Source of the DNA: Nonomuraea sp. NBC_00507
GTDB taxonomy: Bacteria; Actinomycetota; Actinomycetes; Streptosporangiales; Streptosporangiaceae
Direction: 5' to 3'
Length of the DNA stretch: 64,000 nt
Assembly (NCBI RefSeq): GCF_036013525.1
Contig: NZ_CP107853.1
Span: 7,254,001-7,318,000, forward strand
Part shown: positions 3,783-15,754 of the stretch, piece after piece
Layout of the letters: the number at the start of each line of letters is the position of its first letter
Numbering within the stretch: position 1 is the stretch's first letter
The notes under the pieces: model-generated
Database searches by the model: none
What the model saw: the letters and a program-made list of their open reading frames with translations, nothing else
What the model was told of the DNA's origin: nothing
Program-made: the position numbers and the translations under genes

Positions 3783-4732
3783 GCGGCACGAGCAGCGGCA
3801 CGGTGAATGGCCCTGTGAGTGGCCCGGTGAGCAGCATCGCCCAGGCCAACCCTTGGCGGCCGGTCGGCCCGTGCACGACCGCCACCTGCGTGACGGGCCC
3901 GGCCGCCGCCGCGGGGATGCTGCGCCGGGTGGCGCGGCTGTCGGCGGCCCTGGTCGTGATCCTCGCCGGCCTGCCGGTGTCTCTGGCGGCCTTCCGGGCG
4001 CCCGCCCGCGTGCGGGCGGCCATCACGAGGGCGTGGGCCAGGCTGCTGCTCCGGGCGCTCGGCATCCGGGTCGAGGTCCCGCCGGGAATGCCCGGCGCGG
4101 AGGGGCTCGTCGTGGCCAACCACATCTCCTGGCTGGACCCGCTCGTGCTCGCCGCGACGGTACCGTCGCGGCCGCTCGCCAAGCAGGAGATCGCCGGATG
4201 GCCGGTCGTCGGACGGCTCGTGGCCGGATCGGGGGCGCTGTTCATCGATCGGGAGCGCCTGTACGCGCTGCCGGCGACCGTCGCGGCGGTCGCGGGCGCG
4301 CTGCGGGCCGGCGACACCGTTGTCGCCTTCCCCGAGGGCACGACCTGGTGCGGGCGCGGGATGGGCCGGTTCCGGCCGGCGGTGTTCCAGGCCGCCATCG
4401 ACGCGGAGGCGGCGGTGGTCCCGGCGGCGCTGTGGTATCACGAGGGCGGCGCCACCTCGACCCGCGCCTGCTTCGTCGGCGACGACTCGCTGCTGGCCTC
4501 CATGCTGCGGGTGGCCGCCACCAGGGACCTCGCCGTCGAGGTGACGCTCCTCGACCCCGTACGGCCCGCGCCCGCCGACCGGGCGGCGCTGGCCGCGCTG
4601 GCCGAGGGCCGGATCCGCGCACACGTGCTCGACGACGCGCACGCCGGCTGGGCGGCGAAGACACCCTTCAATACGCTCGTGCCCGCCGCAGCAGGCGGAA
4701 TCGACCTCGCTCAGCCGGTGCGTTCCCCGTGA
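3779..4732 (+). CDS. OlsA-like lysophospholipid/lyso-ornithine-lipid O-acyltransferase
   Basis: 317-residue PlsC-family membrane acyltransferase. The catalytic box NHISWLD (HX4D form) lies near residue 114, with FPEGTT near residue 184, the acyl-acceptor binding motif. A hydrophobic segment (LVVILAGLPVSLAAF) precedes the catalytic domain. The start chosen is the GTG at 3779 overlapping the TGA of the upstream gene; a longer frame upstream is only the shadow of that gene. The first 25 residues are a low-complexity Ser/Gly/Thr/Val stretch produced by short DNA repeats, so the functional start could be slightly later. With the preceding gene it would complete ornithine lipid synthesis; an ordinary lysophosphatidate acyltransferase role is the alternative. 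Confidence 0.85.
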   Translation: MSGTSSGTVNGPVSGPVSSIAQANPWRPVGPCTTATCVTGPAAAAGMLRRVARLSAALVVILAGLPVSLAAFRAPARVRAAITRAWARLLLRALGIRVEVPPGMPGAEGLVVANHISWLDPLVLAATVPSRPLAKQEIAGWPVVGRLVAGSGALFIDRERLYALPATVAAVAGALRAGDTVVAFPEGTTWCGRGMGRFRPAVFQAAIDAEAAVVPAALWYHEGGATSTRACFVGDDSLLASMLRVAATRDLAVEVTLLDPVRPAPADRAALAALAEGRIRAHVLDDAHAGWAAKTPFNTLVPAAAGGIDLAQPVRSP

Positions 4733-4748
4733 CGGCCGTGACGGCTGC

Positions 4749-11907: not shown

Positions 11908-13455
11908 GTGCACAACGACATCTCGCATCACCGTCTGGCCAGACCGGGATCATGGACCGGCCCCGATCCGCTCGTCCGGATCCGGGGACTCCGCAAACAC
12001 TTCGGCGGCATCCACGCGCTCCGCGGAGTGGACCTCGACCTCCACGGCGGCGACATCCTCGCCCTGCTCGGCGCCAACGGAGCCGGCAAATCGACGCTGA
12101 TCAAGATCCTGGCCGGGATCCATCACGCCGACGGGGGACAGGTCGTCGTGGCCGGCCATCCCCTGGGAAGCCAGGCCGCTTCCGGCAGCATGGCCTTCAT
12201 CCACCAGGATCTCGGCCTCGTGGAGTGGATGAGCGTCGCGGAGAACATCGCCCTCGGCGCCGGATACGCCCGGCGCGGCGGCCTCATCTCGTGGCGCGCG
12301 GTGCGGCAGCGCGGCGTGGACGCCCTGCGAGCCATCGCCTCTCACCTCGACCCCGACCTGCCGATCGCGCAGCTGACGCGCGCGGAGCGTTCGCTCGTGG
12401 CCATCGCCCGCGCGCTGGCCACGGATGCGACGGTCCTCGTGTTCGACGAGCCGACCGCGTCCCTGCCCGCCGCCGACTGCGTCGCCCTGTTCGACGTGCT
12501 GCGCACGCTCCGTGACCGCGGCCACGGAATCCTGTACGTCACCCACCGGATCGACGAGGTATACCGGATCGCCGGCAGCGTCGCCGTCCTTCGCGACGGA
12601 CGCGTCGTCAGCCGCGGACCGCTCGCCGGCCGCCGGCCGGCCGATCTCGTGCGCGACATCGTCGGCCGGGAGAGCAGGGTTTACCGGCACCGGCATCGCC
12701 GGCCAGGAGAGGTCCTGCTGCGCGTCGCCGGCGTGCGTGCCGGGCAGGCGGGACCGGTCGGGTTCGAGCTGCGCGCAGGCGAGGCGCTCGGCCTGGTCGG
12801 ACTCGCGGGCGCCGGGCACGTGGACATCGGACGCGCGCTGGCGGGCGCCTGCCCCCTCCTGTCGGGCAGCGTGCACCTGGCAGGGCGCCCGTACCGGCCG
12901 GGCTCGGTGTCGGCCGCCGTCGGCGCGGGTGCCGGTCTCGTGGGCGGCGACCGGCAGGAAGAGGCCGCCGCGGAGCTGAGTGTACGGGAGAACCTCCTGG
13001 CCAACCCCGCGACCCGCGGCCGATCGCCGCTGAGCCCGGTGGGAGCCCGGCGGGAGCGCGCCGAGACGATGGCGGTCATCACGCGACTGCGGGTCAGCCC
13101 CGCCGACACCGAGGCGACTTTCGCCACCCTGTCCGGCGGGAACCAGCAGAAGATCCTGCTCGGGCGCTGGCTCGGAGCCCGCAGCCGCCTGCTGATCCTT
13201 CAGGAGCCCACGGCCGGCGTCGACGTCGGCGCGAAGTCCGAGATCTACCGGCTGCTGGGTGAGGCCCTGGCGAGCGGGCTGGCCGCCCTGCTCGTCTCCA
13301 CGGACTTCGAGGAAGTCGTGAACATGTGCGACCGCGCACTCGTGTTCACCCGCGGAGCGGTCACCGCCGAGCTCGGCGGTGACGCCCTCACCGTCGCAGC
13401 CCTTACCCACGCGGCCACGGCCGCGCCCGCCGGCCGCCGGGCGGAGCGTTGCTGA
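11908..13455 (+). CDS. Sugar ABC transporter ATPase with two ABC domains (RbsA/XylG/MglA type)
   Basis: 515 residues starting at a GTG. First ABC domain: Walker A GANGAGKST, Q-loop FIHQDLGLVEWMSVAENIALG, signature degenerate (LTRAERSLVAIARAL) and Walker B VLVFDEPTAS. Second domain: Walker A is degenerate (GLAGAGHVDIGR), as usual for this subfamily, but the signature LSGGNQQK and Walker B LLILQEPTAGVD are intact. Hence one canonical and one composite ATP site, the normal state of ribose-type importers. The stop overlaps the TTG start of the permease gene. Energises uptake of a pentose, hexose or similar ligand; the sugar is not predictable. Confidence 0.93.
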   Translation: MHNDISHHRLARPGSWTGPDPLVRIRGLRKHFGGIHALRGVDLDLHGGDILALLGANGAGKSTLIKILAGIHHADGGQVVVAGHPLGSQAASGSMAFIHQDLGLVEWMSVAENIALGAGYARRGGLISWRAVRQRGVDALRAIASHLDPDLPIAQLTRAERSLVAIARALATDATVLVFDEPTASLPAADCVALFDVLRTLRDRGHGILYVTHRIDEVYRIAGSVAVLRDGRVVSRGPLAGRRPADLVRDIVGRESRVYRHRHRRPGEVLLRVAGVRAGQAGPVGFELRAGEALGLVGLAGAGHVDIGRALAGACPLLSGSVHLAGRPYRPGSVSAAVGAGAGLVGGDRQEEAAAELSVRENLLANPATRGRSPLSPVGARRERAETMAVITRLRVSPADTEATFATLSGGNQQKILLGRWLGARSRLLILQEPTAGVDVGAKSEIYRLLGEALASGLAALLVSTDFEEVVNMCDRALVFTRGAVTAELGGDALTVAALTHAATAAPAGRRAERC

Positions 13456-14462
13456 CCAGAGAGCTCGTCCGGCGGCGGCTCGCCGCGGGACGTCTCATCG
13501 GTGGTTACGGGCTGCCGGCGCTGGCCTTCCTCCTGTTCGTCGTGTTCGCACTCGTCCTGCCGGACACCTTCCCCACGATGGCCAACCTGACCGCGATCAT
13601 CTCCGCCTATTCGATCATCGCGATCCTGGCGCAGGGCGCGATGATCCCCATCGTCACGGGCAACTTCGACCTGTCCATCGGCTACGGCCTCGGGCTGGGC
13701 CATGTCATGACACTGCTTCTCGTCGTCAACGCCGGCTGGCCGTGGCCCCAGGCCTGCCTGGCCGTACTCGCCGGCGGCGTCGCGGTCGGCGTGATCAACG
13801 GTCTCCTCGTGGAGTTCGCGCGCATCGACTCCTTCATCGCGACGCTCGGCACCGGCAGCGTCCTGTACGCCGTCACGGGCTGGGTGACACACGGCGCCCG
13901 CATCTTCGCCGGCCCGCAAGGCTTGCCCGCCGGTCTCACCGACCTGTACGACTCGACCTTCCTCAACCTGCCGATAGCCGCGTTCTACGTCCTCGCCCTG
14001 ACCGCTGTGCTCTGGATCGTGCTCGAGCGGCTCGCGCTGGGCCGCTACCTCTATGTCATCGGCTCCAACCCGCGGGCGGCGGAACTCGTCGGGATCCCCG
14101 TCCGCCGCTACGTCATCCTCGCCTTCGCGGGCTCGGGCCTGGTGACCGGCTTCGCGGGGATCCTGCTCGCCGCCCAGCAGCAGATCGGCAACCCGAGCGT
14201 CGGGCTGGACCACCTGCTGCCGGCGTTCGTCGCCGCGCTGCTCGGCTCCACCACGATCAAGCCCGGGCGGGCCAACCCCTGGGGCACCGTCGTCGCCGTC
14301 GCCGTCCTGGCCATCGGGCTGTCGGGCATCAGCCAGCTGGGGGCGGACTTCTGGGTGACCCCCCTGTTCAACGGGATCACGCTGCTCATCGCGGTCGGAC
14401 TGGCCGGCTATGCGGCGCGGCGCCGGACACGCGCCGGCCCCGCTGCCGCCGCCGCGGACTGA
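13449..14462 (+). CDS. Sugar ABC transporter permease (RbsC type)
   Basis: 337-residue inner-membrane permease of the branched-chain/ribose superfamily (BPD_transp_2). About nine hydrophobic segments are visible, with the family motif GNFDLSIGYGLGLG near residue 75, a loop INGLLVEFARIDSFIATLGT, and GSNPRAAELVGIP before the coupling region. It starts at TTG 13449 inside the end of the ATPase gene, seven-base overlap, with GGAG upstream. Its TGA at 14460-14462 shares a base with the first ATG of the micro-ORF array that fills the gap to the binding-protein gene. Confidence 0.93.
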   Translation: MLTRELVRRRLAAGRLIGGYGLPALAFLLFVVFALVLPDTFPTMANLTAIISAYSIIAILAQGAMIPIVTGNFDLSIGYGLGLGHVMTLLLVVNAGWPWPQACLAVLAGGVAVGVINGLLVEFARIDSFIATLGTGSVLYAVTGWVTHGARIFAGPQGLPAGLTDLYDSTFLNLPIAAFYVLALTAVLWIVLERLALGRYLYVIGSNPRAAELVGIPVRRYVILAFAGSGLVTGFAGILLAAQQQIGNPSVGLDHLLPAFVAALLGSTTIKPGRANPWGTVVAVAVLAIGLSGISQLGADFWVTPLFNGITLLIAVGLAGYAARRRTRAGPAAAAAD

Positions 14463-14580
14463 TGAGCCCTGAGTGATGAGATGAGCCCTGAGTGATGAGA
14501 TGAACCCTGAGTGATGAGATGAGCCCTGAGTGACGAGCCCTGAGTGGACAGCCCTGAGTGAGGAGCTCTGAGCGAGGAGC
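14462..14580 (+). repeat. Tandem micro-ORF repeat (ATG AGC CCT GAG TGA) between permease and binding protein
   Basis: Four 19-bp units begin at 14462, 14481, 14500 and 14519; each is a complete tiny ORF Met-Ser-Pro-Glu-stop (third copy Met-Asn-Pro-Glu), and each TGA shares its A with a following ATG. Because 19 is not a multiple of three, successive micro-ORFs rotate frame. Three degenerate 14-bp units follow (14533, 14547, 14561), lacking the ATGAG insertion, and the last supplies the AGGAG used by the next gene at 14585. The first ATG overlaps the permease stop. Seen directly; a termination-reinitiation or attenuation role is inference. Confidence 0.9.
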
Positions 14581-14584
14581 AGGC

Positions 14585-15754
14585 ATGGATCTCACCTGCC
14601 GCGGATTCCGGCGTGGTGCGACGGCGCTGGCCTTGGCCGCCGTGGTGACCGGCGTCGTTGCCGGCGGCTGCTCGCGGGGCGCGCCCCGCCCCACGCCGGA
14701 CGGCGCGCCCACCCGGGACCGGGCGGCCAGTCCGTGCCCTGACGTGACGGAAACGGCCGCTCGGGCGGTCGCGCGGGCTGAAGCGGTGAACACCGCGTGG
14801 GACGGCCCCACGACCGGGCCGCGCGCGGTCGCCGGCAAGAGCGTGGTCTTCGTCGCCTCGACCATGACGAACCCCGGCGTGGCCGGCACCGCCAACGGGG
14901 TGCGGGAGGCCGCCCGGACCATAGGATGGCGCGTCCGCGTGATCGACGGCCAAGGCACTCCGGCCGGGATCCGGTCTGCTCTGGGGCAGGCGATCGCCCT
15001 CCGGCCATCCGGCATCGTCATCGGGGGGTTCGACCCGAACTCCGTGGCTCAGCAGGTCAAGCAGGCCGACGCCGCCGGCATTCCGCTCGTCGGCTGGCAC
15101 GCCACCCCGTCACCCGGCCCCAGCACGAATCCCAAGCTCTTCACCAACGTGACGAGCCGGGTGGAGGACGTCGCGAGGATCAGCGCGTACTGGATCATCG
15201 CCACCTCCAACGGCGACGCGGACGTCGTGATCTTCACCGACTCCTCGATCCCCTTCGCGGAGAACAAGTCCCAGCTGATCAGGAAGACCCTGCAGAGCTG
15301 TTCCGGCGTGAAGCTGCTCGCGTACGAGAACGTCCCGCTACCCGACACCGGCAACCGGATGCCGGTGGTGACCTCATCGCTGCTGTCACGCTTCGGCGAG
15401 CGGTGGACGCACTCGGTCGCCATCAACGACGTCTACTTCGCCGACGCCGCCCCTGCGCTGCGTGCCGCGGGACGGAAAGGCGGCGGGCCTCCCTACGCCA
15501 TCGGCGCCGGGGACGGGGATCCTTCGGCGTTCCAGCGCATCCGCGCCCGGCAGTTCCAGCAGGCGACGGTCCCTGAGCCGCTGGAGGCTCAGGGCAGCCA
15601 GATCATCGACGAGCTCAACCGCGCGTTCGCCGGCCGGCCGGCCAGCGGGTACGTGACGCCGGTGCATCTGACCACGACCGGGAACGTGGACAACTCCACC
15701 TCATGGGAGCCACGCGGCTACCGGGAGGCCTACCGGCGCATCTGGCTCGGCTAA
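14585..15754 (+). CDS. Sugar ABC transporter substrate-binding lipoprotein (RbsB-like)
   Basis: 389 residues from ATG 14585, preceded by AGGAG. Signal peptide with lipobox VAGGC (cysteine 29). The mature part has the Peripla_BP_4 fold: KSVVFVASTMTNPGVAGTANG at the first lobe, ALRPSGIVIGGFDPNSVAQQV, then NGDADVVIFTDSSIPFAENKS in the second. Third member of the operon after the ATPase and permease, separated from the permease by the micro-ORF repeat. Ligand unknown. The conserved cysteine pair and long insertions between lobes are compatible with a monosaccharide, polyol or nucleoside-type ligand. Confidence 0.9.
   Translation: MDLTCRGFRRGATALALAAVVTGVVAGGCSRGAPRPTPDGAPTRDRAASPCPDVTETAARAVARAEAVNTAWDGPTTGPRAVAGKSVVFVASTMTNPGVAGTANGVREAARTIGWRVRVIDGQGTPAGIRSALGQAIALRPSGIVIGGFDPNSVAQQVKQADAAGIPLVGWHATPSPGPSTNPKLFTNVTSRVEDVARISAYWIIATSNGDADVVIFTDSSIPFAENKSQLIRKTLQSCSGVKLLAYENVPLPDTGNRMPVVTSSLLSRFGERWTHSVAINDVYFADAAPALRAAGRKGGGPPYAIGAGDGDPSAFQRIRARQFQQATVPEPLEAQGSQIIDELNRAFAGRPASGYVTPVHLTTTGNVDNSTSWEPRGYREAYRRIWLG

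Follow-up and report, generated by a model that had tools for sequence, protein, structure and literature searches.

A tandem array of stop-start overlaps between the permease and lipoprotein genes of a Nonomuraea ABC importer, probably a lineage-specific minisatellite

Bacterial minisatellites, or VNTR loci, are formed by tandem units; their copy number varies between strains and they are specific to a lineage. Short repeats are also present at the gene junctions of actinobacteria: the MIRU, as described in one study, have a small open reading frame (ORF) able to couple with the neighbouring gene, are found in many genomic places, are seemingly mobile and insert at start codons (PMC12548453). 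Neighbouring genes may also be coupled by termination and reinitiation, which operates at ATGA and TGATG overlaps according to two studies (PMC6728339, PMC10666635). In the literature which we searched, outside which most subscription papers fall, we found no description of stop-start overlaps repeated in tandem.

Here we describe an array of this kind in Nonomuraea sp. NBC_00507, whose genome has 12.9 Mb in two contigs. The window, by which we mean the whole stretch of 64,000 nucleotides that was analysed, corresponds to positions 7,254,001–7,318,000 of contig C1. The array is hosted by an operon of three genes which code for the ATP-binding protein, the permease and the lipoprotein of an ABC importer; a MarR-type gene then follows. 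The coordinates of all features are given in Table 1. The NCBIfam matches listed for the importer are far under the cut-off, so that they do not assign a substrate to it.

The spacer from the permease TGA to the lipoprotein ATG has 122 bp, and it is filled by four units of 19 bp and three units of 14 bp. They are head-to-tail copies of one unit, as detected by TRF, and as a repeat the array is well beyond chance. The 14-bp part is placed by TRF in positions 14521–14580, a somewhat different extent from that of the units which we delimited by eye. The initial annotation had noticed a four-codon micro-ORF in each of the 19-bp repeats, one of them with Asn, and an overlap of the first ATG with the permease stop. 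All four micro-ORFs are indeed present and the overlap consists of one shared base. The ribosome binding site of the lipoprotein gene had been attributed to the last of the three further units, and we find it across the end of that unit. Two details have to be modified, both on the idea that every stop shares a base with a following ATG. Stops 1–3 do so, but their partner is a two-codon ORF which joins consecutive units; the ATG of the next four-codon ORF starts 4 nt past the preceding four-codon stop and shares no base with it. The fourth stop shares no base with any ATG. GTG codons also overlap stops in the array, in the form GTGA.

Table 1. Position of the importer genes, of the elements of the array in the window and of a second stop-start array found in another Nonomuraea genome
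Feature	Position	Strand	Remarks
ATP-binding protein, sugar-type ABC importer	11908..13455	+	ABC_tran; best NCBIfam matches AraG/RbsA-like, all those shown below cut-off
Permease	13449..14462	+	BPD_transp_2; RbsC/AraH-like, below NCBIfam cut-offs; stop TGA 14460-14462
Four 19-bp tandem units, consensus GATGAGCCCTGAGTGATGA	14461..14537	+	TRF: 4.1 copies, 94% matches, score 140
Micro-ORF 1, MSPE*, ATG AGC CCT GAG TGA	14462..14476	+	−1 overlap with permease stop
Two-codon ORF ATG AGA TGA, joining units 1 and 2	14476..14484	+	identical at 14495-14503 and 14514-14522
Micro-ORF 2, MSPE*, ATG AGC CCT GAG TGA	14481..14495	+	
Micro-ORF 3, MNPE*, ATG AAC CCT GAG TGA	14500..14514	+	
Micro-ORF 4, MSPE*, ATG AGC CCT GAG TGA	14519..14533	+	stop followed by C, no ATG
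13-codon GTG ORF, final link of the chain	14530..14571	+	stop 13 nt 5′ of lipoprotein ATG
Three degenerate 14-bp units	14535..14576	+	by eye: 14535-14548, 14549-14562, 14563-14576
AGGAG, Shine-Dalgarno site of lipoprotein gene	14575..14579	+	spans the end of the last 14-bp unit
Lipoprotein (substrate-binding protein)	14585..15754	+	Peripla_BP_4
14-bp stop-start array (L197)	G049:C1:9177300-9180400, 1485-1584	minus	multicopper oxidase / sulfotransferase junction

The array resembles minisatellites and VNTR loci in its tandem units, in its number of copies, which is seven in one strain and six in another (two genomes), and in its restriction to one lineage; it differs from them by the stop and start codons which its units hold in rotating frames. 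With the MIRU it shares the presence of short repeats and small ORFs at an actinobacterial gene junction, but its unit has 14–19 bp, the array is found at one locus and it has seemingly grown in place. The unit is not present at many loci: elsewhere in the 12.9 Mb there are only single matches of its core, with 2–3 mismatches. Neither is a small ORF coupled at −4 nt, since in this strain 13 nt separate the final stop from the lipoprotein ATG. As for mobility, the single locus, together with a two-copy seed in the same place of N. turkmeniaca, speaks for growth in place. Finally, the links of −1 and −4 nt in the array are those of termination-reinitiation, and a −4 overlap is found in 8 of the 13 related gene pairs. 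In the known cases two genes are joined directly, whereas the array, a candidate for coupling, would need eight overlaps in succession, with ORFs whose length goes from 3 to 13 codons.

We searched the whole genome for a 17-base core of the unit with up to 3 mismatches. Of the 46 matches, 7 fall within the array and 39 are scattered singly; none of the latter is in tandem. A control with the reversed core gave 8 matches, to be compared with the 39 scattered ones, a difference which may indicate a loose sequence preference of the core. We also considered a dispersed repeat family and rejected it, since the unit forms an array at a single locus.

Tandem arrays are common in this genome. In a sample of 1.264 Mb, made up of the window and 60 stretches of 20 kb, TRF detects 128 arrays with a score of at least 60 and a period of 7–100. 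Outside called genes there are 58 of them, half of which (29) lie between genes of the same strand; the window array is the 18th of the 58 by score. The last three figures depend on the rough gene calls of a home-made program. Another array of this genome is found in locus L071, in positions 4629–4745 (near 9,064,630 of contig C1). It has 3.8 copies of a 31-bp repeat with a GGAG-type site and an ATG, and it is placed between a murQ-like and a serine-hydrolase-like gene, 5′ of the latter (gene names from translations).

Nonomuraea sp. G32, which belongs to the same species, also has the array, in a stretch of 4.1 kb with 96.7% identity. A whole 14-bp unit is absent in G32, which has thus six units in a spacer of 103 bp; there are also deletions of 4 bp and 1 bp and five substitutions. 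Between both arrays 101 of the 106 aligned bases are identical, with 19 gap positions in addition. A change of copy number by slippage, which had been suggested when the array was noticed, is therefore supported by the comparison of these two genomes. As they are the only carriers of the array, selection is not measurable.

In other species the situation is different. The permease has a match with E ≤ 1e-60 in 13 of 52 genomes from other species of the genus (a tally of 14/98 includes the genome of the window itself), and the array is absent in all 13 orthologous junctions. The spacing of the lipoprotein start in these junctions, determined by eye from the sequence, is −4 in eight of them (one with GTG), +10 in four and either +2 or +14 in one. 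The array is also missing from a paralog in the same genome (L016) and from a second copy in genome G007 (L017). In a wider sample, the best 80 of 207 relatives, both genes were located in 67 cases and TRF finds the array in one of them, which is G32; 7 of the 67 junctions were inspected as sequence and the remainder through the TRF output. A script gives a candidate lipoprotein start at −4 in 18 of the 67. Absence from close relatives, which the initial annotation had regarded as adverse to its proposal, thus applies to the other species but not to the sister strain.

The junction of N. turkmeniaca (L081) has a −4 overlap, and in it TRF detects 2.1 copies of a 14-bp repeat (score 44) immediately 5′ of the lipoprotein ATG. 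The final units of the window array are similar to this repeat. Two Streptomyces (loci L107 and L152) have unrelated arrays in the corresponding spacer: S. olindensis has 4.1 copies of 23 bp and Streptomyces sp. BR123 has 4.5 copies of 15 bp.

We consider that the array is a minisatellite specific to this lineage, which originated from the lipoprotein leader by slippage, and that the micro-ORFs are a by-product; we give this interpretation a probability of about three in four. A by-product of DNA copying errors is most likely, ahead of a dedicated control device. In the ancestor the permease and lipoprotein genes were probably overlapping or almost touching. The ancestral leader 5′ of the lipoprotein ATG would have been short and internally repeated, approximately GAGCGAG-AAGCCCCGAACGAG-GAGCAG, as it is in N. 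turkmeniaca, and slippage would have multiplied its 14-bp unit. The amplification would have put a TGA into the frame of the permease, whose present end coincides with the beginning of the array, while growth of the array would have pushed the two genes 103–122 bp apart. Some units would have been lengthened to 19 bp through a duplication of 5 bp. Since the units hold TGA, ATG and GTG, a chain of micro-ORFs would appear as a consequence, and the lipoprotein would be translated mainly from its own Shine-Dalgarno site.

The chain itself is striking and requires some discussion. When GTG starts are included, eight ORFs with links of −1 or −4 form a strict chain, which begins at the permease stop and continues unbroken until 13 nt are left before the lipoprotein ATG; if only ATG starts are allowed, the window spacer has no such unbroken chain. 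Coupling demands an overlap of stop and start or a distance of at most about 10 nt: every internal link fits this spacing, the last link has 13 nt, and the sister strain has relaxed links only. TGA, ATG and GTG are abundant in the window spacer. We prepared 4,000 dinucleotide shuffles of it, in which the permease stop and the Shine-Dalgarno end were held fixed and in-frame GTG extensions were counted. A strict chain is found in 10.05% of them and a relaxed chain in 34%. The chain of coupled ORFs is not clearly beyond chance.

A simulation shows how such a chain can arise. When a random unit is repeated through TGATG, a strict ATG chain is kept in 83–96% of the trials (2,000 for each unit length, with lengths of 9–24 not divisible by 3); lengths which are 1 mod 3 keep it about equally to those which are 2 mod 3. 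When the length is a multiple of 3, the strict chain is found in at most 0.05%. The chain is an automatic result of copying in tandem through a TGATG overlap, so that the ladder requires no selection.

The main alternative is a relay of ribosomes: those which terminate at the permease would pass along the micro-ORF chain, through its overlaps of 1 or 4 nt, to the lipoprotein leader, and the number of units would set how many arrive. A selected relay of this type would be possible on paper in the window strain, where the strict chain comes so close to the lipoprotein ATG, but it is less likely than a minisatellite with a variable number of copies and we consider it rather improbable. The frequent −4 overlap in other species indicates that coupling may be ancestral. 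The orthologs lack the array, so that conservation gives no support to the relay. In G32 the four unit starts are ATG, TTG, ATG and GTG, all of them with their stops retained, while five random substitutions spare all four starts in 40% of 20,000 trials. The conservation of four NTG starts is what a relay predicts and it counts against the by-product interpretation. On the other hand the strict chain of G32 is broken. Only a relaxed chain remains, which reaches a GTG in the lipoprotein frame and is also found in 44% of the shuffles of the G32 spacer.

Eight successive steps should also lose most ribosomes. Binding proteins are usually required in excess over permeases, which sits badly with a loss of ribosomes along the chain. 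No other of the 14 starts in the spacer has a Shine-Dalgarno pairing as strong as that of the lipoprotein ATG (−8.6 kcal/mol): the remaining 13 range from −3.2 to −6.5, and the starts of three neighbouring genes from −6.8 to −7.2. These energies, calculated against an anti-Shine-Dalgarno tail, are rough. With such a pairing, independent initiation would suffice. Huber et al. 2023 report for six gene pairs that an intergenic distance of about 20 nt nearly abolishes reinitiation, cite contrary results of others on long-range reinitiation, and find that the last 15 nt of the upstream gene are enough for coupling, a point in favour of the relay (PMC10666635). The 122-bp spacer thus either uncouples the two genes or requires the chain. 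Uncoupling would be the simpler reading, given the strong Shine-Dalgarno site, a choice which sequence alone cannot decide.

A second stop-start ladder, independent of the window array, is found in another Nonomuraea (G049, locus L197), between two genes which we named multicopper oxidase and sulfotransferase from reading their translations. Its 14-bp unit forms six ORFs ATG AGA GCC CAC TGA with −1 links, and a last ORF overlaps the sulfotransferase ATG by −4, so that the chain is complete with ATG starts only. In the two closest relatives of G049 (L250, L251) the same gene pair meets in a plain TGATG overlap. These features favour a relay, but here again a strict chain is found in 10% of the shuffles, as for the window array.

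Three TGATGA within short distances are found in 37 of 54 genomes of the genus. The reversed pattern has a single match, in a control which is unmatched for coding words. We picked 20 of these places by hand and classified them with the home-made gene calls. Only three (L193, L197 and L204) are in sense between genes of the same strand, a small number for a relay; six are wholly inside called genes, four are placed at the end of a gene which faces a convergent one (L192, L202, L205 and L208) and seven are elsewhere.

The unit length of such arrays was also compared, in rows picked by hand from the matches listed: those with equal gaps were taken, one per site, and those with unequal gaps or with a multiple of 3 were dropped. 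With multiples of 3 set aside, the TGATGA arrays listed comprise 25 sites, and in 20 of them the length is 2 mod 3 (binomial p 0.004), as might be expected for a relay, but 10 of 15 are so in the TGACGA control and the difference is not significant (Fisher p 0.46). If period 14 is excluded, the proportions among the arrays listed become 10/15 for TGATGA and 2/7 for TGACGA, which leans the other way with small numbers. The simulated chain, as we have seen, is kept about equally with lengths 1 mod 3, which also argues against the relay. Period 14 is the commonest among the TGA-anchored arrays listed from Nonomuraea and family genomes (10 of 25 for TGATGA, 8 of 15 for TGACGA). Selection on unit length was rejected, since the bias does not differ significantly from that of the control and both sets share this commonest period.

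The two ladders suggest another possibility, which we put forward as a speculation with low odds. Stop-start overlaps might propagate themselves under slippage: copying of a TGATG or ATGA with a length not divisible by 3 would give a ladder which still passes ribosomes, so that overlapping gene pairs would tolerate minisatellites and gain a relay tunable by its length. The array in the window and L197 would then be two natural examples.

A quite different explanation is that the array is a binding site for a regulator, either protein or RNA, or a structured leader which controls the lipoprotein gene within the operon. Regular repeats of 14–19 bp beside a start codon could fit such a role, and a search in Rfam shows some resemblance to C/D-box RNAs, but none of the five matches listed reaches the gathering score. 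These matches, in positions 14454–14535 of the window, are four archaeal C/D-box RNAs and one IRES, the best one with 25.5 bits versus a gathering score of 38; they are probably due to chance, derived from GTGATGA and CTGA words. The RNA fold has no excess stability (z +0.6; 146 of 200 shuffles are equally or more stable). A scan limited to sigma-70-type signals, which has little power in this case, found no promoter-like or terminator-like site, although none was expected by chance either. Together with the absence of the array from the 13 orthologs of other species, these results make a regulatory site very unlikely. An assembly artefact, to which tandem repeats are prone, is hardly credible for an array found in the genomes of two strains with different substitutions, one of them assembled in two contigs.

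A slippage-born minisatellite with its micro-ORFs as a by-product is thus our preferred interpretation, and its meaning depends on whether ribosomes use the chain. A working chain would provide a natural test of the number of successive terminations and restarts of which a bacterial ribosome is capable, and slippage would be a simple route to change the ratio of the products of an operon while keeping their coupling intact. If the chain is idle, it would mean that repeats at overlapping genes readily mimic designed regulatory arrays.
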